Below are positions 3,035-20,750 of a DNA stretch of 22,947 nt, in pieces. The stretch lies in IMG/VR virus record IMGVR_UViG_3300009164_000375, positions 1-22,947 of that record. The stretch is one strand, 5' to 3'. The translations under genes and the position numbers were made by a program. Source of the DNA: a virus. The stretch's first letter is position 1, and every line of letters begins with the position of its first letter. Below the pieces are notes generated by a model. It worked only from the letters and a program-made list of their open reading frames with translations. It was not told where the DNA came from and did no database searches.

Positions 3035-3322
3035 ATGACTATAAATTTCTTAGAGTTATTCAATGCGGTAGCAGAAGTGGCAAGACCAATTCATGTGAAA
3101 TATAATCCAATTCCGAACATGACGGATAAAATCGCAGACTACGGAATGGACAGTTTGGATATGTTGATGGTGTGCGTTTACATGTGCGAGCTGCACGGCA
3201 TACCTGAAGAAGTGGGTAAAGATTTGCAAGCAACGAATGTGCAAGAATTCCAAGAATTCATCGACAAACACAAAACCCAAGACCCTGAGTCGATCGAAGC
3301 TGCTGTGGAGTATTGCAAATGA
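3035..3322 (+). CDS. Acyl carrier protein
   Basis: This 95-residue acidic protein matches the size and pattern of acyl carrier proteins. The core is DYGMDSLDMLMVCVYMCELH: Ser40 in a DSL motif at the start of helix II is the expected 4'-phosphopantetheine attachment site. The preceding Asp-Tyr-Gly and following hydrophobic positions fit helix II, and a C-terminal helix (EFQEFIDKHK) fits helix IV. ACPs carry growing acyl chains as thioesters and need a host phosphopantetheinyl transferase, which is not encoded here. The start is set by a strong upstream AAGGGGAT ribosome-binding site. The gene overlaps the next one, a ketosynthase, by ATGA, so the two are almost certainly co-translated partners. 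Placement inside a virion operon is very unusual. Family assignment is strong; substrate and target are unknown. Confidence 0.88.
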   Translation: MTINFLELFNAVAEVARPIHVKYNPIPNMTDKIADYGMDSLDMLMVCVYMCELHGIPEEVGKDLQATNVQEFQEFIDKHKTQDPESIEAAVEYCK

Positions 3323-4434
3323 AAATCTTTTTAACAGATTACCGCACTGCTTGGTCGTCAAATGTGAAACTTATCGGCGACATAAAATACCCACAGTCGG
3401 TGCATTTGTTTGAAGACACCTATAAACGAATCGCTACAGGACTGAGTTATGTACCCCATAAAGTCGCAGAGAAAGTTCTTGACCCCGTGCTTTGCGAGAG
3501 CCTACGTCAGGAAGATTGTAAAACTGCTTTTATTCTGGCAAGTGGTAATAGCCATTTTGCTGGCATCGGTGCTCGCTATTATGATAATTCGCTGAGCTAC
3601 ACCTACAAGTTTTTACCCTTTACACTTACCCAAGTTTACGCAGGTCGGATCGCCCAGTCTCTTGGCGCTTGCGACCAAATCACGACCGACTCGTCTGCAT
3701 GCGCTTCCTCGCTAAAGGTAATGATGGACGTGCAAAACCTTATTTGGACTTACAAGTTCGATCGGGTTATTGTTCTTTCCGTGGAAGACGGAGTCTCGAA
3801 TGCAGTGCTAGAGTTCTTCGGCGAAGCAAAAGCCTCACTTTCCTACTCGGAAGAGCAAAACGGCATTCTCCCGTCTGCTTTCGATGGTTCTAACTATGGT
3901 TTCAGAGTTGCCCAAGGCGCTGTTCTGGCAGTTTTCGAGTCTTCCGAGTATATGGAGCGCTCTGGTCATGCCCCAAAAGCCCAAATGTTGGGTGCTTATA
4001 CTGCCTCGGAAAGTTGCAGCAATGCGATCGGGCAGCGTGAAGACGGACAAGGATTTATCAACGCCATAAAAGGCACACTGGAGGTGGCAAATGTTAGCAG
4101 CAATGAAATCGCTGTGGTCAAAACTCACGGCACTGGTACAAAATCTAATAACCAAGCTGAAAAGTCTGCGCTCGAAAAAAGCCTGACAGGGTTCATCGCA
4201 ACATCTTTTAAGCCAACCATCGGTCACACGATGGGTGTTTCGGGACTGCTAGAAACATGTTTGTTGCTCGATTCGATGAAAAAGGGCATAGTTCCTAAGA
4301 TAGAAAATAGAACGGAAAATGACGATGTATTCCTCTCCCATGACCGAGAAATTTCAGGCGGTGTTGTTCTTAGCTTGGCTGCTGGGATGGGCAATGTTTA
4401 CTCGTCTGCGTTGTTTGACACGAGGGTCGCATAA
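3319..4434 (+). CDS. Beta-ketoacyl-ACP synthase (FabF/FabB-like, thiolase fold)
   Basis: This 371-residue protein shows the complete ketosynthase active site: Cys128 in TDSSACASS, His270 in KTHGTGT, and Lys298/His303 in KPTIGHTMG. These correspond to the Cys-His-His triad and catalytic Lys of FabF-type condensing enzymes, which extend an acyl chain by decarboxylative condensation with malonyl-ACP. It is somewhat shorter than E. coli FabF (412 aa). In the C-terminal gating loop, where FabF has a GFGG motif, this protein has GMGN, with Met357 in the gatekeeper Phe position. The start chosen is the ATG at 3319, preceded by GGAG, rather than the TTG two codons earlier. It overlaps the ACP stop and is itself followed by TAATG into the next gene. 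All catalytic residues are present, so an active enzyme is likely. No ketoreductase, dehydratase or malonyl transferase is seen nearby. Confidence 0.9.
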   Translation: MKIFLTDYRTAWSSNVKLIGDIKYPQSVHLFEDTYKRIATGLSYVPHKVAEKVLDPVLCESLRQEDCKTAFILASGNSHFAGIGARYYDNSLSYTYKFLPFTLTQVYAGRIAQSLGACDQITTDSSACASSLKVMMDVQNLIWTYKFDRVIVLSVEDGVSNAVLEFFGEAKASLSYSEEQNGILPSAFDGSNYGFRVAQGAVLAVFESSEYMERSGHAPKAQMLGAYTASESCSNAIGQREDGQGFINAIKGTLEVANVSSNEIAVVKTHGTGTKSNNQAEKSALEKSLTGFIATSFKPTIGHTMGVSGLLETCLLLDSMKKGIVPKIENRTENDDVFLSHDREISGGVVLSLAAGMGNVYSSALFDTRVA

Positions 4435-11931: not shown

Positions 11932-12074
11932 GACCCCACTTCGGTGGGGTCTTTTTTAATCAGCGCCGAAGACCATGCTTCTAGCCAGATGTTGTAAGGG
12001 TCGTTGAGCATGTCTTCGTTGCCAGTGCGCTTCAACAATGCAACCCAATCCTCGAATTCTTTTTTAGGATCCAT
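11916..12074 (-). CDS. Small acidic protein at the end of the early operon
   Basis: A 52-residue ORF starts at the ATG at 12074 (MDPKKEFEDWVALLKRTGNE). A good GGAAGGTGG ribosome-binding site lies inside the last codons of the polymerase gene, whose stop it overlaps by 11 bases. A longer version from 12125 is less likely because it would sit wholly in the end of the polymerase gene and lacks this signal. The N-terminal half looks like an amphipathic helix. The last residues, PTEVGSKHSP, are read through both terminator hairpins of the converging operon. No family is recognised, but the RBS and spacing support it as real. Confidence 0.55.
   Translation of the reverse strand: MDPKKEFEDWVALLKRTGNEDMLNDPYNIWLEAWSSALIKKDPTEVGSKHSP
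11932..11957 (+). terminator. Strong intrinsic terminator with UUCG tetraloop
   Basis: GACCCCAC and GTGGGGTC form a perfect 8-bp stem around TTCG, followed by six T residues (11952-11957). It would terminate + strand transcription from the structural operon. On the opposite strand the sequence lies inside the end of a small ORF, where there is no T tract immediately after the stem, so it is mainly a + strand terminator. Confidence 0.92.
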
Positions 12075-13302
12075 CAGATACCACCTTCCATTTTTCAATT
12101 TGTAACATACGGATGCCGTTACCACCCATCCGACCTCGTATCAATAGAACAGCACCGATCGGCACTGCCTCTAAGATTTCTTTGCCCATCTTTTCGTAGT
12201 CCTTACGACGCACTGTGGCGATTGCTAAGCCAGTGTCGTCTTTGATGGTTACGTTAAGCCAATAACGGAACTGTCGGTCGTAGTCGGTAATCACGCCACC
12301 ACGCTTCATTACGTTACCAGTTTCCAGAGCATCACGTAAGTTCTTTTCCGTTAGCACCCCGATCAAAACTCGCTCCGATCCGTCTGCTTCAAGGTCGTTA
12401 CACTTTGTAAACTCCCAGCCCTCTTTCAATCCGTACTTGCGTGGGTTGGCATACCATTCCCCAAACCGAGCAGTGAATGGGTATGGATCTGGCCATTTTA
12501 GTCTTGGGTTTTCAAGTTTGGCGGTTATACTTGGGGGTAGATCTTTTTTTGTAACTCTTGAATCGAGGACTTTTTGCGCCATCTTTGGACCAATCCCGTG
12601 GACTGCGGTAAGCCCACCATAAATTGCATCTCCTTTAGCTGCCCAGCTGGCTTCCGAACGATCTTTGTCGAACGCTACGTATTTGAAACCTTCGGCTGTA
12701 ATTTCTCGGAGGAGTTTGAGGACTGCGTCATCGTCGGAGGTGTGGCGCAAGGAAGCAGCACTGAACTGCAGTGGATGGTAGTACTTCAACCAAGCTGTCC
12801 ACGCAGAGATGACGGAGTAAGCAGCTGCATGTGCCTTGACGAAAGCGTACGACCCTGCATGCATCATTGAGTTCCAAACCTCAAGTGCGGATTCTTTGTT
12901 GATGTTTTGTTGCTCAGCACCATCCAAAAACTTGTCTCGAAATTGATCGAAGTATTCTTTGCCCAACGACTTAGACATTGCTCGACGCAATGCAGTCAGC
13001 TCTGGCCAACCAAGCAAGCCAATGTCCCGACCAAGGAACAAGATCTGCTCTTGATAAATAACAACACCTTCAGTTTGCTCAGTCCACTTTTTATGAATGT
13101 CATGATGATACAACGGAACATCCAACCCTCTCCGCACGTCGAGAAACTTCTTCGCACCACCAGACTGCAATGGTCCAGGACGAGCGAGGGAAGTGAGTGC
13201 GACAATGTCGTTGAAATTCTTGACTTGGAATTGCCTGAGCAACTGCCGAGCAGCATCACCCTCGAGCTGGAAAACACCAGTGATCTTTTGACTGTTTAGC
13301 AA
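12064..13302 (-). CDS. dnaE: C-terminal part of DnaE-like DNA polymerase III alpha (after in-frame stop)
   Basis: This frame continues the polymerase without a frameshift: the upstream part ends at TAA (13306-13308), followed by GAA and then TTG (13300-13302), the assumed start. It contains the fingers-domain signatures ITGVFQLEGDA (residues 7-17), ALTSLARPGPLQSGG and GVVIYQEQ. A MHAGSYAFVKAHAAAYSVIS segment matches the GYGFNKSHSAAYA region of DnaE. Further on are a helix-hairpin-helix (LTAVHGIGPKMAQKVLDSR) and an OB-fold-like end (RVLIGVLTEKN to MLQIEKWKVV). In C-family polymerases these parts grip nucleotide and template. The segment is 412 aa and lacks the catalytic Asp residues, which are in the upstream part, so it is unlikely to work alone. 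Reinitiation, readthrough, or a nonsense change or sequencing error are all possible. Confidence 0.8.
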   Translation of the reverse strand: MLNSQKITGVFQLEGDAARQLLRQFQVKNFNDIVALTSLARPGPLQSGGAKKFLDVRRGLDVPLYHHDIHKKWTEQTEGVVIYQEQILFLGRDIGLLGWPELTALRRAMSKSLGKEYFDQFRDKFLDGAEQQNINKESALEVWNSMMHAGSYAFVKAHAAAYSVISAWTAWLKYYHPLQFSAASLRHTSDDDAVLKLLREITAEGFKYVAFDKDRSEASWAAKGDAIYGGLTAVHGIGPKMAQKVLDSRVTKKDLPPSITAKLENPRLKWPDPYPFTARFGEWYANPRKYGLKEGWEFTKCNDLEADGSERVLIGVLTEKNLRDALETGNVMKRGGVITDYDRQFRYWLNVTIKDDTGLAIATVRRKDYEKMGKEILEAVPIGAVLLIRGRMGGNGIRMLQIEKWKVVSDGS

Positions 13303-13305
13303 TTC

Positions 13306-14793
13306 TTAGATCTTTGGGTCGTGCACGTCGATATCGGTAATCTTTTTGCCGACTTCGTCTAGGGTTTCTTGCACAATGTCGAGCGTCTTCAGTCCTAATG
13401 CGTCCAGCTTCACAAGGTTTAACGACTCTGCTTGGTATTTGTCGATCTGCCCGATTCCCTCTGCAGTGACGGAACAGTAGTCTGCGACTGGCGTATTGCA
13501 AATGATCACACCTGCAGCGTGCACACCTGCATGGGATGCGTGTCCTTCGAGCGCACCTGCATTCCTGAATCCAGGATGTTTGTCGAGCAACTCTCTGCCA
13601 GCCTTGAGCGCACCCATCGTGTCTTCAAGACAGAATGCTGCACGTGAGTCGCCTGATGACCGCTCAATCATGTTGTCTCGGATCTCGGCAGTTTCCCAAA
13701 CTGGAATCTTCATGCGCTTGCCGACGTTGGCGAGAATTGATTTGGGCTTCAGCTTGTTGACGTTGCCCAGTCTTGCAATGTTGGTCTCACCATACGTTTC
13801 TTTTAGGTAAGTAAACAATTCGTCCCTGCGGTCTCCAGGAAAGTCCATATCGATATCGGGTAAGTCGATACGAGTAACGTCCACAAAACGCTCGAACAAC
13901 AATCCGTGCTCAATCGGGTCGAGTTCGGTTATGCCGAGCAGATAGCAGATTATCGAACCAGACGACGATCCACGTCCAGGACCAACGAGCATTCGCTCAC
14001 GTGCCCAGCGCATTAAGTCATAAACCATCAAAAAGTAGGACTCGAACTGCTTTTCACGAATAACACCCAGTTCACGCTGTAATCTGGCTTCGTATTCCTC
14101 ACCGAAACCCTTTGGAAAGCGCCAGCTGATACCTTTCCTTGCCTCTGCCTCTAAATCGCCTTCTACGACCATATTTTTGGCCACTGGCAGGGTTACAGGC
14201 TCAAATCGTTCAGCGATTTCCTCCCAACTGACTGAAAATGGATGAATTTCGTCAATTTCACGCTGTGACCACCAATGTTGCGAGTGTGCACCCAATCGCA
14301 CCCCTAAAAGTTCAGCGTACTTGCGGTCTGTTGGGGCAGGGTAGCGCACGTCTGAAACAAAGAACAGTGGTAGGCTCTTAGCACGAGCTACTTCGATATT
14401 TATTTTATTTTTCAATGGATTGAGTGGGTGCAAGTCCACGACCATGTCTTGCGCTTTGACTCGCTCGATTTCGGCAGTAAACGGAAACACCAACAGATTG
14501 TCGGAAAACTCTGTGTCGTAAGTTATGCCTGCACTGTGGCGGTAAAGTTCCCGCAGACCCTCTTGATTCTTGGCGAGCACCTTGATGGAGCGCTCTTCGT
14601 CGCCCACGAGGAGTTCTGCGCCAAGAATCGGTTGGATACCTGCCTTTTCTGCAGCCTTGAAAAAAGGCACATGACCCCACGTGCCAACGTCACAAATTGC
14701 TGCTTTGGTATAACCCAACTCGCTGGCTCGTGCTACGACCCTGCCAATCGGTCCAAAACAGTTACCAAAAGTGAACTCAGTTCTTGTTATCAT
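13306..14793 (-). CDS. dnaE: DnaE-like DNA polymerase III alpha, N-terminal part with catalytic palm
   Basis: The 495-residue product starts with a PHP-like domain (residues 1-100) in which the usual HxH metal ligands are absent. The pattern CDVGTWGHVPFFKAAEKAGI and LGAELLVGDEER is still clear. The polymerase core follows: VGPGRGSSSGS (270-280), LPDIDMDFPGDRR (311-323) with Asp313 and Asp315 as the catalytic pair, HASHAGVHAAGVII (418-431), and LVKLDALGLKTL with Asp464 as the third catalytic Asp. The gene ends at an in-frame TAA after DIDVHDPKI. In DnaE proteins the next residue is typically Tyr, as in DPKTYELL, so a full protein of 909 aa would result from one codon change. It overlaps the DnaQ-like gene by 17 bases, consistent with a polymerase-proofreader pair. 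Replication of the phage genome is the likely role. Confidence 0.88.
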   Translation of the reverse strand: MITRTEFTFGNCFGPIGRVVARASELGYTKAAICDVGTWGHVPFFKAAEKAGIQPILGAELLVGDEERSIKVLAKNQEGLRELYRHSAGITYDTEFSDNLLVFPFTAEIERVKAQDMVVDLHPLNPLKNKINIEVARAKSLPLFFVSDVRYPAPTDRKYAELLGVRLGAHSQHWWSQREIDEIHPFSVSWEEIAERFEPVTLPVAKNMVVEGDLEAEARKGISWRFPKGFGEEYEARLQRELGVIREKQFESYFLMVYDLMRWARERMLVGPGRGSSSGSIICYLLGITELDPIEHGLLFERFVDVTRIDLPDIDMDFPGDRRDELFTYLKETYGETNIARLGNVNKLKPKSILANVGKRMKIPVWETAEIRDNMIERSSGDSRAAFCLEDTMGALKAGRELLDKHPGFRNAGALEGHASHAGVHAAGVIICNTPVADYCSVTAEGIGQIDKYQAESLNLVKLDALGLKTLDIVQETLDEVGKKITDIDVHDPKI

Positions 14794-15310
14794 TTAGCGC
14801 CTTGTAACACTCCCACAATGCTCGCACGTCGTCCACTGCTCGGTGAGTTTGGGCGAGGGGTTTGCCTTGTGTGTGTTCGTAGAGTTCGGTTAGTTTCATA
14901 CGTCTGCCCTTTATGTGCATCGTTGAATCGACTGTGCATACTTGGTTCGGGGGGAAAGGGAATCTCCTCTCCCAACCAGTGCGGAGTAATTCAAAGTATA
15001 ACACGTCTCGGTCAAACGCAACATTATGCGCAACAAGCGTGTGGGCGCCAAGGAAGAAATCAGCCAGCTCGGGAATGACTTCCTCGATCGTGCGTTTCCC
15101 CTTGAGTTGCTCTGGCTTGATGCCTGTGATTTTGGTAATCTCGGCAGAGATTTCCTGCTTTGGATCAATCAGCTCGCCAAGTTCCGCTACGACACTGCCT
15201 TTGTCCGAGACTTTGATTGCACCGATTTCAATAATTCTCGGTTGCAATACTAAGTCTGACGAACTCGGCAGTATCAAGCCTGTTGTTTCAAAATCAAGCA
15301 GTATGATCAT
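14777..15310 (-). CDS. dnaQ: DnaQ-like 3'-5' exonuclease (DEDDh, proofreading)
   Basis: The 177-residue protein has all DEDDh exonuclease motifs: LLDFETTG (Asp6, Glu8), AHNVAFDRDVL (Asp100) and HRAVDDVRAL (His156, Asp161). It is about the length of a single exonuclease domain, without the tail that binds alpha in bacterial epsilon. Such enzymes remove mismatched 3' nucleotides. The gene immediately precedes and overlaps the DnaE-like polymerase, which itself has a degenerate PHP domain, so this is probably its separate proofreading subunit. It overlaps the upstream DUF6378-like gene by 17 bases. No clear RBS is seen other than through that coupling. Assignment is firm; physical association with the polymerase is inferred. 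Confidence 0.92.
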   Translation of the reverse strand: MIILLDFETTGLILPSSSDLVLQPRIIEIGAIKVSDKGSVVAELGELIDPKQEISAEITKITGIKPEQLKGKRTIEEVIPELADFFLGAHTLVAHNVAFDRDVLYFELLRTGWERRFPFPPNQVCTVDSTMHIKGRRMKLTELYEHTQGKPLAQTHRAVDDVRALWECYKALNDNKN

Positions 15311-15599
15311 CGGTCAGCTCTTCCAACATGGCTGCATAGACCGACAAGTCGTGCGCTGAATCTTTGTGCCCACCTCGCTCGAGGTTTTCTGCGTAACGCA
15401 TTAACTTGCTAAGGCACTGCACGAGGATTCCGTAACGATTGTGGTCGTCTGCAGAAATGCAAGGCAACCCCTCAGGGAAAAGTATCTCGACAACTTGGCC
15501 AAACTTTTTGTAGTTGTCGCCATACAGTTTGTTGCGCTCTTCGTAAGTCTTGGCATTGCTACGCAAGATTTCTGGAACAGTTTGGATTTTCTTTTTCAT
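15294..15599 (-). CDS. DUF6378-like phage protein
   Basis: This 101-residue protein has the pattern TYEERNKLYGDNYKKFG (residues 18-34), then a helical segment HNRYGILVQCLSKLMRYAEN and GGHKDSAHDLSVYAAMLEEL near the end. This arrangement matches the DUF6378 family of small phage proteins, whose function is not established. The alternating acidic helices are somewhat reminiscent of MazG-like all-alpha pyrophosphohydrolases, but I do not see the full EExxE..ExxD metal site. The gene starts within the stop of the HAD phosphatase gene (ATGA) and overlaps dnaQ at its end, so it is embedded in the nucleotide/replication operon. That context suggests a link to nucleotide pools, by inference. Confidence 0.75.
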   Translation of the reverse strand: MKKKIQTVPEILRSNAKTYEERNKLYGDNYKKFGQVVEILFPEGLPCISADDHNRYGILVQCLSKLMRYAENLERGGHKDSAHDLSVYAAMLEELTDDHTA

Positions 15600-16021
15600 A
15601 CTAAGATTCCTTTCACACCGATTGAGTTATACATTTGGACTATGTCTTGCCTGTCGTCGTAGGCTTTTTCGATTTTAAACAACTTGAGCAAGTCGAGGGT
15701 TAACTTGCGTTTCATCTCGGCAGAATGCTCTTCGTTGTCGTTGGGGCGCATGATCAATGCATCGTAATGCAGGTCGTTGTCTTCCAACCACCGACGAGTT
15801 TTCAATCGCATATACTCGGGACGAGCAGTCATAAAGAAAACTTTACAAGGTGCTTCGTCCACGATGTGGCGATTCATAACAGTGTCGCCACTGCAGTGCA
15901 GGTGATACTCGTGGTATTTGTGCAACCCATCTGGTGCTTCTGGGTCGATCAACCAATGACGCCAAGTGTCGTCGCTGATTGTGTTGTCTAAATCGACAAT
16001 ACGAATGGTGTTCGGCAGCAT
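15596..16021 (-). CDS. HAD-superfamily phosphatase (polynucleotide kinase 3'-phosphatase-like)
   Basis: The 141-residue protein shows HAD motif I as IVDLDNTISDD, with Asp10 as nucleophile and Asp12 as acid/base. Motif II is FFMTARPEYM (Thr65), Lys104 or Lys106 is a candidate for motif III, and YDDRQDIVQMY (Asp122, Asp123) is motif IV. The DLDNT form and single-domain size resemble the phosphatase half of T4 polynucleotide kinase and small phage HAD phosphatases. The enzyme could remove phosphates from DNA/RNA ends or from nucleotides. It follows thyX by one base with a strong AGGAAGGA ribosome-binding site, and overlaps the next gene by ATGA. The substrate is unknown; placement with ThyX makes deoxynucleotide metabolism or end repair plausible. 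Confidence 0.87.
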   Translation of the reverse strand: MLPNTIRIVDLDNTISDDTWRHWLIDPEAPDGLHKYHEYHLHCSGDTVMNRHIVDEAPCKVFFMTARPEYMRLKTRRWLEDNDLHYDALIMRPNDNEEHSAEMKRKLTLDLLKLFKIEKAYDDRQDIVQMYNSIGVKGILV

Positions 16022-16022
16022 G

Positions 16023-16760
16023 TTAGTCCTTCCTGATCAGGTCGATTGCTTTTGCGATTTCCCAGCCAACACCTTTGCCAGTGGTGATGCCCATTTCGTT
16101 GGCGATCGTCTCGAGCATTTTAACGGCAACGTCTTTATCAGACTCGAAGAACGGAGTTGCCCATGGCCAGACTTCAAGAATCAAACTTTCCATCTTGCGT
16201 ACAATCTCGCCATACTCACCTTGTGCACGCAACGACTTCCGTGCCTTAATGAGGTCAGTGACGGATCGGAAGTTATATTTACAAACAATGTTGCACTCAG
16301 TGTTCAATGGCAGGATACCACGTGCATCCTCGAGCGCCACACCCATCTCGACCAACTCTTTGTAGGATTGGCGAGCAGACTCCACCGCAGTGCGATACGC
16401 TTCGAGCTGACTGCCTTCCAACTTCCTGCCTTCAACAACACCCAGCTCAGACGCATTGGTAACACGCATCGACTGCATTGCGTAAGAAGCAGTGCGAGTG
16501 CGAGTTATTTGCTGCGCTACAGCTCGGCTGATACCGCTGAGCAGGAAGGTAACGTCCACAAACTCCCAAGAGCTCTTTATGGTCTTAGCCATGTATTGCA
16601 GCTCTTCCTCTTTTTTGCTAATGCCCCAACCCTTGATCTGGCTCATAAGACCAGAGCTAAGATTGAGACGAGTTTGCTTAGTGAAGATCATCACGTCTGC
16701 AGCATGCCACATCTGGTCGCTACGACCGATGCCTGTAAAATCGATTAATTCAACTTTCAT
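16023..16760 (-). CDS. thyX: Flavin-dependent thymidylate synthase ThyX
   Basis: This 245-residue protein matches ThyX, which makes dTMP from dUMP using methylenetetrahydrofolate, NADPH and FAD. The diagnostic signature is present as ITRTRTASYAMQSMR: Arg87, Arg89, Ser97 and Arg99 align with RHRx7SxR, but the usual His is Thr88. Other ThyX landmarks are FLLSGISRAVAQQITR before the motif, EDARGILPLNTEC, and the C-terminal NFRSVTDLIKARKSLRAQGE segment. Its size fits the family (220-260 aa). It overlaps the 80-aa gene by 11 bases and is followed one base later by a HAD phosphatase. Phages carry ThyX to raise dTMP during genome replication. The His-to-Thr change may alter flavin binding or activity. 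Confidence 0.9.
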   Translation of the reverse strand: MKVELIDFTGIGRSDQMWHAADVMIFTKQTRLNLSSGLMSQIKGWGISKKEEELQYMAKTIKSSWEFVDVTFLLSGISRAVAQQITRTRTASYAMQSMRVTNASELGVVEGRKLEGSQLEAYRTAVESARQSYKELVEMGVALEDARGILPLNTECNIVCKYNFRSVTDLIKARKSLRAQGEYGEIVRKMESLILEVWPWATPFFESDKDVAVKMLETIANEMGITTGKGVGWEIAKAIDLIRKD

Positions 16761-16992
16761 TTTCTTTGCTCACTTTCTTTTGTAAAACAGCAACAATTTG
16801 CAATATTTGGTCAGGGGTAAACTTGTGATTGGTTATGTAGTCTTCAACAACATGACAAGCAAAGTTTACACCACGATCAAAACAGTCTAACCCCTTAGCG
16901 ATTGCAACTTCCTCGTGTACGAGTCGGCATTCACCAGTTTCTTGATCACATTCAGATCCTGAAGGACGTCGTCCAGTAATATATTCCGCCAT
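16750..16992 (-). CDS. Small conserved-looking protein between flavoprotein and ThyX
   Basis: This 80-residue protein has a Cys pair near the N terminus (ECDQETGECRLVHEE, about residues 14-28). More Cys follow, as LDCFDRG and NFACHVVEDYI, and the end is a helix, TPDQILQIVAVLQKKVSKEN. The ATG at 16992 has an AGGGAG ribosome-binding site. The gene overlaps the flavoprotein by 106 bases at its start and ThyX by 11 at its end. Such a large overlap leaves open a shorter start, such as a GTG near Val25, but the RBS favours the ATG. Function is unknown. Confidence 0.6.
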   Translation of the reverse strand: MAEYITGRRPSGSECDQETGECRLVHEEVAIAKGLDCFDRGVNFACHVVEDYITNHKFTPDQILQIVAVLQKKVSKENES

Positions 16993-17795
16993 GTTGCAAA
17001 TCTCCCTAAAGAATAAACTCCGTGTTGTTGTGAAAGACTTTCGACAACAAACCTACGGAGTGGTTCGTCGATCGGTGCAATCTTGCCATACGATTGCTTG
17101 TGGTTGGCATCGATGACCTCAATGTCGTCGTCAACAAGACCAAATGCATCAAGCACCTCGGTCATGTCGGACTGCACGTAAGTCATGTCGTCGACCGACT
17201 CAACAATTAGCAAATTGCCAGTGATTGAGGCTCGGTACACAGCAGTGCTCGGAGACGGAAAATAAATCGTCTGGAACACGTCTGCAGATTTGACTCGGAA
17301 GCGTTGCACCCGAATCGGAGAGAACTTGAACAACACGCTCTCTTTTAACTCCATGCCTGCGAGTTTGAGCGCAATGTTCATAGGGATCGTGCTGATGATT
17401 GGGTGGTGCTCGGGCAATTTCTCGACAGGAGTTTCCCATTCCACTCGATCACCAACCTGTTCGATCAAACGCAAGATAAAGTCTTCGGGTGCAATGTAAC
17501 GATCCGCTGCATCCGTTTTCCAAATTGATCGGTCAAAGTAACCACCAGCAACCTTGTGCGAGTACAAATTCGACAACTGAATGTTTGGCTCGTAGAACTT
17601 GCCATCCACCCAGATGTTTTTGAACACACGAATCTTGCGGAACGGAATGCCCACTGCATCGCCGACAGCAGAGGTGCGGAAGCGCAAGACAGCCCTGTGA
17701 GACTGCCTGTCTTTCGACGAGGCTTCAAACACCTTTGCTTGCGGATTGACCGCAGCAGCGATCAACCCACTCAGCCCAGCGCCAAGTATGATCAT
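16887..17795 (-). CDS. FAD/NAD(P)-binding oxidoreductase, UDP-galactopyranose mutase-like
   Basis: The true start is the ATG at 17795, which overlaps the DUF932 stop (ATGA) and follows a GAGGAG ribosome-binding site. A longer frame beginning at 17951 would run inside the upstream gene. The 302-residue product begins with a dinucleotide-binding fold, MIILGAGLSGLIAA (GxGxxG, residues 5-10), followed by acidic Glu24 in KVFEAS, as expected for FAD binding. The C-terminal part (SYGKIAPIDEPLRR then VYSLGRFATWRNILLDDVLQ) resembles the UDP-galactopyranose mutase/amine-oxidase fold. No clear sugar-nucleotide site is visible by eye. Position beside ThyX, another flavoenzyme, may mean shared redox or nucleotide chemistry; alternatively it modifies a nucleotide or sugar. 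Confidence 0.78.
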   Translation of the reverse strand: MIILGAGLSGLIAAAVNPQAKVFEASSKDRQSHRAVLRFRTSAVGDAVGIPFRKIRVFKNIWVDGKFYEPNIQLSNLYSHKVAGGYFDRSIWKTDAADRYIAPEDFILRLIEQVGDRVEWETPVEKLPEHHPIISTIPMNIALKLAGMELKESVLFKFSPIRVQRFRVKSADVFQTIYFPSPSTAVYRASITGNLLIVESVDDMTYVQSDMTEVLDAFGLVDDDIEVIDANHKQSYGKIAPIDEPLRRFVVESLSQQHGVYSLGRFATWRNILLDDVLQDLNVIKKLVNADSYTRKLQSLRG

Positions 17796-18529
17796 AACAT
17801 CTCCTCGGCGATCTCCCACAATTTCATATTCACCTTGACAGTGTTGTCCATTGCACGGATGCCGTGTGTGCGAGTGTTGCGACCATTCGTTGAACGACCA
17901 ACGATGCCACCTTTGATAAGGTTTTCTTGCACACGATTGAAAATGCGCCACAGGTCTGAGCCTTGGTCTTCCGCACGACGAGCCTCGAGCAATGTGTGTG
18001 GCATAACACGACCACCCCAGAGCGCTGAAGCCAGCACAGAGAATTCAACTTCCTCGTTCTTGCTAAGGACACGTTGCTTGAACACGTCGATGCGACGAGC
18101 TGCTTCTTGCGCAGACTTGATGACCTTGTTTGCTTCCTCAAGCACACGCTCAGCAGTTACGTCCACGTGGCGAATGCGAGCAGATTCAATCTCCTGCGAC
18201 TTGACGATCAATCCGTTGGAGCAAACAAAACGGAACAAGCCAGCTTCCATACGCAGAGAAGAAGAGCCATCGTTAGCATTGATGACCATTATCTCGGGCA
18301 CAGAGCCATTGATCTCCTTGAGGTAAGACTCGTGGCGCATACGCACAAAGTGACGCACCATGCGTGGGTCACGTTTGCGTGGCTTGAGTGTGTTGGTTTG
18401 CGTTACTGTGAAACCCTCTTCACGCATGAGGTTGACGACTGATTCGGTGCTGATCAAATCGTACTTGGCAGAAAGTTTTTCGAACTTGATGCCGTCTGTT
18501 GCTGCTTCTGGAAGAATAATTTGTGACAT
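17792..18529 (-). CDS. DUF932 domain protein
   Basis: This 245-residue protein matches the DUF932 phage/plasmid family. Typical elements are FVRMRHESYLKEINGSVPEI, VINANDGSSSLRMEAGLFRF, VCSNGLIVKSQEIESARIRH, then a helical segment with RRAEDQGSDLWRIFNRVQEN and the ending VNMKLWEIAEEML. The C-terminal GGIVGRSTNGRNTRTHGI stretch is Arg/Gly rich. The biochemical activity of DUF932 is not established. These genes occur in phage and plasmid early regions near replication functions, which fits here. The start is preceded by an AGGAGCAAAAC leader that is a weak copy of the operon's repeated leader. It is coupled to the flavoprotein through an ATGA overlap. Confidence 0.88.
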   Translation of the reverse strand: MSQIILPEAATDGIKFEKLSAKYDLISTESVVNLMREEGFTVTQTNTLKPRKRDPRMVRHFVRMRHESYLKEINGSVPEIMVINANDGSSSLRMEAGLFRFVCSNGLIVKSQEIESARIRHVDVTAERVLEEANKVIKSAQEAARRIDVFKQRVLSKNEEVEFSVLASALWGGRVMPHTLLEARRAEDQGSDLWRIFNRVQENLIKGGIVGRSTNGRNTRTHGIRAMDNTVKVNMKLWEIAEEML

Positions 18530-20255: not shown

Positions 20256-20750
20256 TCAGGCAAATTCTGGGGAATTTAGCCATAAAGGCGCACCGCCAGC
20301 ACGCTCCCAGCTCATCCAGTCGGTCGTGTCGAGCTTGTGGCGGTAATAATTACGATAGGACTCGACAGGATCGTCGGTCTTGCACTCGTCAGGCATGCAC
20401 AGGGCAAATGGGACGCTAGGCGCTTTGTTTAGCGCAGGTGGTGCCTTGCTCAGCTCGCCAGAGAACAACTCAGCGCAAGCGTGGTATTTACCATAGCGCA
20501 ACTTGTATTCACGAGCAAGGTATTGCCCAAGCGTCAAAAGCCAGCGATAATTCATAAGGGAAGCAGCAGCCCACTGAACACAAGGATGGTTCTCGTGAGT
20601 TGGTTTGTATGTTACGTTAGCGCCATTGCCGTGGATGTGGTGCACAGTGGCAAGAATCTGCGCTGTTTCGAGCGTCATCTTAACAACGTGTTTGTCGCAG
20701 TGCATCTTGGCTGCAAGTGGTGCGGATTGGTGTAGTACAAAAATGTTCAT
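20256..20750 (-). CDS. Conserved phage protein with HCDKH motif
   Basis: The 164-residue protein starts MNIFVLHQSAPLAAKMHCDK and continues HVVKMTLETAQILATVHHIH. The clustered His17, Cys18, Asp19, Lys20 and His21, followed by an amphipathic helix, could form a metal or nucleic acid site. Further on, YKPTHENHPCVQWAAASLMN and WMSWERAGGAPLWLNSPEF are also rich in His and Trp. I recognise the N-terminal pattern from uncharacterised phage and bacterial proteins but cannot state a function. It is the first gene of the leftward operon, with a leader that is an incomplete copy of the repeated element, and a promoter about 45 bases upstream. A hairpin downstream at 20224-20248 may end part of its message. 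Confidence 0.75.
   Translation of the reverse strand: MNIFVLHQSAPLAAKMHCDKHVVKMTLETAQILATVHHIHGNGANVTYKPTHENHPCVQWAAASLMNYRWLLTLGQYLAREYKLRYGKYHACAELFSGELSKAPPALNKAPSVPFALCMPDECKTDDPVESYRNYYRHKLDTTDWMSWERAGGAPLWLNSPEFA

Follow-up and report, generated by a model that had tools for sequence, protein, structure and literature searches.

A phage ThyX with an altered active site and its flavoprotein neighbor as the possible core of a modified-pyrimidine module

Phages known to modify the pyrimidines of their DNA rely on pathways combining a thymidylate-type enzyme, enzymes that remove the ordinary nucleotide and a phage polymerase. The systems of T4 (hydroxymethyldeoxycytidine), SPO1 and SP8 (hydroxymethyldeoxyuridine, hmdU) and M6 and ViI (hypermodified thymidine, T) all use ThyA-type enzymes. 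The locus described here lies in the IMG/VR virus record IMGVR_UViG_3300009164_000375 (positions 1 to 22,947), a single record of 22,947 bases which is called the window below. Like these pathways, it brings a thymidylate-type enzyme together with a phage polymerase and with enzymes that may remove nucleotides, and some phages of this kind have been reported to be restriction-resistant. Unlike the T4, SPO1/SP8 and M6/ViI pathways, it has a ThyX variant instead of ThyA and is known from its genes, the base being only predicted. With a probability of about 0.5, we propose that this ThyX variant and a neighboring flavoprotein form the core of a phage module that supplies the DnaE polymerase of the phage with a pyrimidine deoxynucleotide modified at C5. 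The pair is encoded as follows:

16887 to 17795, minus strand: flavin adenine dinucleotide (FAD)-type flavoprotein of 302 amino acids (aa), family phrog_4828, with a UDP-galactopyranose-mutase-like fold (profile match and fold comparison)
16023 to 16760, minus strand: ThyX-fold enzyme of 245 aa with an altered active site (profiles, residue alignment and fold)
16470 to 16502, minus strand: RTRx7S motif of this enzyme, RTRTASYAMQS, residues 87 to 97 (sequence)

The family of the enzyme is indicated by 1) the Pfam Thy1 profile (PF02511; E 1.4e-31, 110.2 bits against a cut-off of 24.8), 2) NCBIfam TIGR02170 (90.4 bits, cut-off 87.9) and 3) its predicted structure (predicted local distance difference test score, pLDDT, 88.7), whose best Foldseek match is 1o27 (E 1e-10, TMt 0.78), the rows shown being all ThyX entries. 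The sequence-only reading of this DNA had pointed to a threonine, Thr88, in the place of the histidine of the RHRx7S signature, a residue which that reading took to contact flavin, and the motif does read R87-T88-R89-TASYAMQ-S97. Alignment with Thermotoga maritima ThyX (TM0449), the sequence to which its relatives (hereafter the group) were aligned and whose residue numbering is used here, shows that the change goes beyond the motif histidine, the equivalents of H53, H59 and Y91 being altered too; in the places of H53, H59, H79 and Y91, the window protein has I61, F67, T88 and V100. In the available extracts of the work on the T. maritima enzyme, H53 is described as stacking on the flavin or the folate, held by Y91 and N85, while Y91 is the probable general acid and R174 activates deoxyuridine monophosphate (dUMP). 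According to the same extracts, an enzyme with the Y91A substitution consumes the flavin carbinolamine over a hundred times more slowly.

The altered residues recur throughout the group. Among 144 distinct rows, the H53 place holds isoleucine in 140, the H79 place threonine in 122 (S 15, N 5, I 1, H 1), the Y91 place V, A, I, T or M in 143 and the H59 place phenylalanine in 141; the S88 place is mixed (T 75, S 55, A 14). The arginines contacting dUMP or flavin are retained, with R78 present in 144 rows, R90 in 143, and R147 and R174 in 142 with 2 gaps. Identical sequences were counted once, and L209, L210, L211 and L212 (double-domain, weak or duplicate) are not part of the residue table. The patterns used to scan for ThyX spanned positions 53 and 79, which biases the 144-row count, and the residues were recounted on the 70 distinct ThyX rows reached via the flavoprotein, that is, rows kept under a locus identifier from flavoprotein queries (a few of these loci, e.g., L003, were also found by ThyX queries). 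H53, H79 and Y91 are all absent in 69 of the 70, and R78, R90, R147 and R174 are present in every aligning row. The lone exception is found in contig G149, which encodes two ThyX proteins (locus L098, 9319-9933 and 14819-15601), one of them a group member with RTR and the other, with RIAHAGILQESQRY, very divergent, as well as a dUTPase. The divergent copy keeps H53 and Y91; it has RIA in the RHR place and a very long branch, which makes it weaker support for the proposed module.

Ordinary ThyX proteins keep these residues: in a control set of 83, nearly all viral, H79 is found in 83, H53 in 82, Y91 in 81 and H59 in 80, and RTR is thus not widespread among the ordinary enzymes of this sample. 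The set is not random, consisting mostly of the best 80 of 202 relatives from a query led by phage MTATph1, and the patterns behind it touch positions 58-59 and 82-89, not H53, H79 or Y91. It is nearly all viral because a bacterial census of ordinary ThyX, made via the group of G001, gave a match in only 4 of 120 genomes. The group shares with ThyX (PF02511, TIGR02170, TM0449) the fold, the profiles and residues R78, R80, R90, R147 and R174, which are kept in nearly all rows, group and ordinary alike. It differs from ordinary ThyX in the replacement of H53 by I, H79 by T, S or N, Y91 by V, A, I or T and H59 by F in nearly all members, and in having the flavoprotein nearly always adjacent. As the arginines are kept and H53 and Y91 lost, nucleotide and flavin binding seem, given the roles published for the T. 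maritima residues, to be preserved in the group and the folate-side catalytic network to be gone. In a tree built on 72 of the 236 aligned rows, in which long branches are present, a supported branch (99/85) sets the 19 ordinary rows on one side. Since the ordinary rows fall together in this way, one ancient change followed by descent is possible, in which case conservation alone would be no proof of a new product.

The second enzyme begins with a GxGxxG motif and matches phrog_4828, a family of unknown function, at E 1.1e-91; neither Pfam nor NCBIfam gave a match. Its predicted structure (pLDDT 85.9) is closest to UDP-galactopyranose mutase (UGM; 4dsh, Z 19.7, root-mean-square deviation 3.3, 288 residues aligned), followed by protoporphyrinogen oxidase (Z 17.6) and the monoamine and amino acid oxidases (Z 15.6-16.1). 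A UGM-like end had been suspected from the sequence. The likeness to UGM stands, but in the predicted model it is not confined to the end: the whole length of the flavoprotein has the fold of the UGM (Glf), protoporphyrinogen oxidase and amine oxidase family. This likeness was not revealed by sequence search alone, and an attempt to map UGM residues by sequence was abandoned, the profile and one E. coli Glf aligning over only 17-24 residues at the nucleotide-binding start (7 in global mode). By eye, a GR-[FL]-A-x-[WY] segment near the end of the flavoprotein is Glf-like, as is the GxGxxG start, whereas the Tyr and Asp that Glf has in its C-terminal segment are missing. In IMG/VR, 265 flavoprotein relatives were found among 296 pattern matches (80 kept), against a single relative, on a 14-kb contig, among 16 pattern matches in the genomes of 84,980 species. 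The flavoprotein therefore appears to be a viral family.

The two genes travel together. Of 50,697 phage records, 359 contain a match to the flavoprotein (E up to 1e-5) and 358 one to ThyX (E up to 1e-16); the two lists, compared as counts per host genus with duplicates included and not record by record, give flavoprotein/ThyX records of 291/289 for Pseudomonas, 27/27 for Escherichia, 9/8 for Serratia, 8/10 for Rhizobium and 6/6 for Xanthomonas. The expected co-occurrence is borne out at the level of single loci: both genes are present in 181 of 188 fetched loci, and in all 145 distinct loci with both, ThyX lies on the same strand, 3' of the flavoprotein. Measured between stop-to-stop frames, the gap separating them has a median of 55 bases in these 145 loci, being below 200 bases in 85 and below 1.5 kb in 132, with a maximum of 5.9 kb. 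In six of the seven loci missing a partner, either a contig end truncates the locus or the partner lies at the opposite end of the contig. L016 and L065 belong to a single contig with ThyX at its other end, as in L087, and wrap-around would explain all three; L039 ends 577 bases after the flavoprotein, L115 starts with ThyX, and L137 has only the last 38 flavoprotein codons. Searched whole, none of 24 records with an ordinary ThyX contains phrog_4828. The recurrence of the same substitution with the same neighbor across hundreds of phage records is beyond chance.

In the window, the pair belongs to a tight run of minus-strand genes, in the order DUF932, flavoprotein, 80-aa open reading frame (ORF), ThyX, HAD, DUF6378-like, DnaQ and DnaE:

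17792 to 18529, minus strand: DUF932 protein, 5' of the flavoprotein; present close to the module in 26 of the 61 long loci
16750 to 16992, minus strand: 80-aa Cys-containing ORF between ThyX and the flavoprotein; in few loci (19 of 292)
15596 to 16021, minus strand: HAD phosphatase, PNKP-phosphatase-like, with DxD, T, K and DD positions conserved (profile matches and alignment)
15294 to 15599, minus strand: DUF6378-like domain (E 0.0026, below the Pfam cut-off; matches the C-terminal part of phrog_4889)
14777 to 15310, minus strand: DnaQ-like 3'-5' exonuclease (profile matches)
12064 to 14793, minus strand: DnaE-type DNA polymerase III alpha subunit (profile match), with an in-frame stop at 13306-13308

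This arrangement is largely shared. Among the 61 loci with at least 6.5 kb downstream (the long loci), DnaE, DnaQ and the DUF6378-like gene are each found in 60 and HAD in 58, followed by DUF932 and an SDR gene (26 each), a glyoxalase-like gene (24) and the 80-aa protein (5). Around ordinary ThyX, 80 control loci gave HAD in 0, DUF6378-like in 0, DnaE in 2 and DnaQ in 9. The 80-aa Cys protein, which starts about 100 bases inside the flavoprotein gene, does lie between the two flavoenzymes in the window, as had been noted, but its occurrence in 19 of 292 loci and 5 of the 61 long ones rules it out as a conserved and functional third member. The conserved companions are instead HAD, the DUF6378-like gene and the polymerase genes, none of which figured in the sequence-only reading. 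As HAD positions D10, D12, T65, K104, D122 and D123, which include the catalytic ones, are conserved in more than 90% of 131 fragments, the protein is probably an active phosphatase. The DUF6378-like domain is matched better by the C-terminal part of phrog_4889 (E 1.7e-16), and a pyrophosphohydrolase role may be inferred. The optional SDR (FabG-like) and weakly glyoxalase-like genes occur together between ThyX and DnaQ (e.g., L027 7847-9062 and L031 9218-10647).

The order flavoprotein-ThyX-HAD-polymerase can also be read from annotated genomes, namely Pbunavirus PB1 and LS1, Wifcevirus FEC19, Serratia MyoSmar, Burkholderia WTB, Luteibacter Pluto, Xanthomonas XcP1, Pantoea Kyle, Cronobacter Ss1 and Vibrio RY-3 and PVA7, some of these blocks having small genes or the SDR inserted. 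In Gekk3-15, an Aeromonas phage, the annotation places pieces of DnaE on the opposite strand. The Rhizobium jumbo phage RHph_Y65 is looser, with the pair about 1.6 kb apart and no polymerase among the genes annotated in the 12.8 kb shown. ThyA (PF00303) was found in none of 54 group records, with the search control positive in 9 of 14 genomes. A dUTPase was found in 2 and a ribonucleotide reductase (RNR) in 1 of 30 module records, many of which are possibly fragments; of four ordinary phage ThyX neighborhoods, two have a dUTPase, one with NrdEF, and the other two have neither.

Three further observations concern the window itself. No stop lies within three residues of the in-frame stop of DnaE in 139 related alignments covering the place (duplicate loci included), and the DnaE copy of this record is hence broken or misread. 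On the plus strand, in the structural-gene half (3035-4434), an ORF of 95 aa whose DSLD motif, seen by eye, resembles that of acyl carrier proteins directly precedes a beta-ketoacyl synthase (PF02801, E 7.6e-15); of 54 module records, 1 was found to have this synthase. The protein encoded at 20256-20750 of the minus strand matches both a pyrimidine-dimer glycosylase family (PF03013, E 4.4e-6) and phrog_624, named 'DNA binding protein'.

Every chemical step of the route that we infer for the module stays conditional. The altered ThyX would still bind FAD and a dUMP-like nucleotide and activate C5 via its kept arginines. With H53, H79 and Y91 lost, the normal folate-to-methyl route would be off, and the carbon could end as a non-methyl group, e.g., hydroxymethyl. 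The flavoprotein might act before or after the ThyX step, either supplying the carbon unit or modifying the nucleotide made by ThyX; the part of HAD and the DUF6378-like domain would be to remove the ordinary nucleotide as a competitor, and the SDR and glyoxalase-like proteins, in the minority of loci having them, would perform tailoring steps on the product. The expected gain would be protection from restriction. The idea of a modified-nucleotide route rather than plain thymidine monophosphate (dTMP) synthesis, first raised for a trio including the 80-aa protein, thus finds circumstantial support in the active-site change and the synteny, though not in its three-protein version.

Restriction resistance has been reported, and left unexplained, in such phages (PMC11990801; PMC11945000; PMC10913387). 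DNA of the Pbunavirus AA20 resisted 10 of 16 enzymes and that of AC20 resisted 7 of 16; a section heading of that paper credits AA20 with DNA-modifying proteins, but the only phage for which its text names genes of this kind is a different one (PMC11945000). JG024 DNA was uncut by ScaI, NdeI and BsaI, with predicted sites existing for NdeI and BsaI, and its authors invoked methylation (PMC10913387). A 'hard-to-sequence' paper on PaP1 was set aside, this phage belonging to another phage group. Further background came from parts of PMC11780129, PMC7048862, PMC9599517, PMC8316439, PMC5954106, PMC11940539, PMC3498832, PMC3008698, PMC12390725, PMC6521218 and PMC7824862.

A number of observations weigh against the proposed module, beginning with the DNA itself. 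In the same 16-enzyme test, only 11 enzymes were effective on U17, an unrelated phage, and part of the 'resistance' of AA20 and AC20 may therefore reflect missing sites or assay limits; MspI, HpaII and HindIII cut both (PMC11945000). JG024 DNA could be amplified by the polymerase chain reaction and long-read sequenced, and it is cut by SacII and XbaI (PMC10913387). Phage SCUT-S1, a carrier of a group ThyX, was typed with HindIII, EcoRI and XbaI maps, according to an extract of its description. As HindIII, XbaI and EcoRI sites contain T and yet are cut, it is unlikely that T is completely replaced by something bulky. Only 17 of 204 enzymes fail on SP8 DNA fully substituted with hmdU (PMC7653180, in part), so that plain hmdU alone fits the resistance poorly; a partial or larger modification could fit. 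The literature yielded no base analysis of DNA from these phages. Among the proteins, the NCBIfam equivalog model for ThyX still accepts the window enzyme, and the activity of the DUF6378-like domain is only putative.

The distribution of the pair brings further points to this side. L181, with a group ThyX, about 1.1 kb upstream of it and no flavoprotein in its 17.8-kb contig, is a real exception. Searched whole, 5 of 7 Rhizobium records contain phrog_4828; Rhizobium phages TM39 and TM21B (L299 and L303, labelled partial genome) have a group ThyX, that of TM21B without its N-terminal part, and no phrog_4828, which makes the difference in the Rhizobium counts (8 against 10) real. Eight records of Wentworth-type Streptomyces phages (L190, 3662-4708, and L201-L207), likewise searched whole, contain no phrog_4828. 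Their ThyX, which has RSR, L53 and A91, falls inside the group on a very long branch, lies in Wentworth near a DnaE polymerase and is possibly a flavoprotein-free relative. Conversely, phage Gekk3-15 has RHR and keeps the flavoprotein, with H53 and Y91 absent. Given the Wentworth-type records, TM39, TM21B and L181, the altered ThyX with its histidine loss and the flavoprotein are not strictly tied.

The main rival, a real though doubtful possibility, is ordinary dTMP supply by a drifted, lineage-specific ThyX, for which the flavoprotein would be the reductase unless it does something unrelated. Profiles and fold do name the protein ThyX, the tree is compatible with one ancient change and subsequent descent, and with ThyA missing from all 54 group records, the altered enzyme is the only known type of thymidylate synthase there; moreover, the group Rhizobium phages have it near dUTPase and RNR genes, as would be expected for dTMP supply. 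Such drift is hard to reconcile with the joint and lasting loss of H53, H79 and Y91, when in T. maritima, as far as the published extracts go, Y91A alone slows a step by more than two orders of magnitude. Nor does it sit well with the lack of a dUTPase in 28 and of RNR in 29 of 30 records, or with the contig that has a second, different ThyX as well. The least likely account takes the module as nothing more than the block of replication genes of a single old phage lineage, with the flavoenzymes linked by descent and resistance arising from methylation or anti-restriction proteins. The position of the genes beside DnaQ and DnaE, seen in 60 of the 61 long loci, and the methylation invoked for JG024 (PMC10913387) would agree with it; it does not predict that the flavoprotein and ThyX stay close in phages named podoviruses, myoviruses and Rhizobium jumbo phages whose surroundings differ, with the SDR, DUF932 and small genes present in some and absent in others, or that the RHph_Y65 pair is found with no polymerase listed nearby.

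A different chemistry, which we consider very unlikely, is a folate-free transfer in which an amine-oxidase-like flavoprotein frees formaldehyde or a larger aldehyde that the altered ThyX fixes on flavin N5 and moves to C5 of dUMP. Free formaldehyde and ThyX are reported to give the flavin carbinolamine (in the available part of the published work), the folate-stacking H53 is lost, and the fold relatives of the flavoprotein include monoamine and amino acid oxidases; its closest fold is UGM, not an amine oxidase, and its substrate is only putative. It is quite unlikely that the full picture holds, namely a new modified pyrimidine in Pbunaviruses, Wifceviruses and many uncultured relatives, made by a ThyX with no dTMP role that moves an aldehyde-derived unit from the flavoprotein, with flavin N5 chemistry in both enzymes.

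In the literature covered, which excludes subscription journals and preprints, no description was found of the altered ThyX, of its pairing with the flavoprotein or of a ThyX-based route to base modification. About 360 phage records, duplicates included, carry the altered ThyX or its flavoprotein partner. Most are of Pseudomonas phages, and the carriers include PB1 and JG024, members of Pbunavirus, a genus which the part of the literature available describes as much used in therapy. The enzyme is annotated in these phages as thymidylate synthase in spite of its missing H53, H79 and Y91 residues. If the proposed module does make a modified base, it could account for their unexplained restriction resistance, represent a ThyX-based route to base modification and reveal new flavin chemistry.

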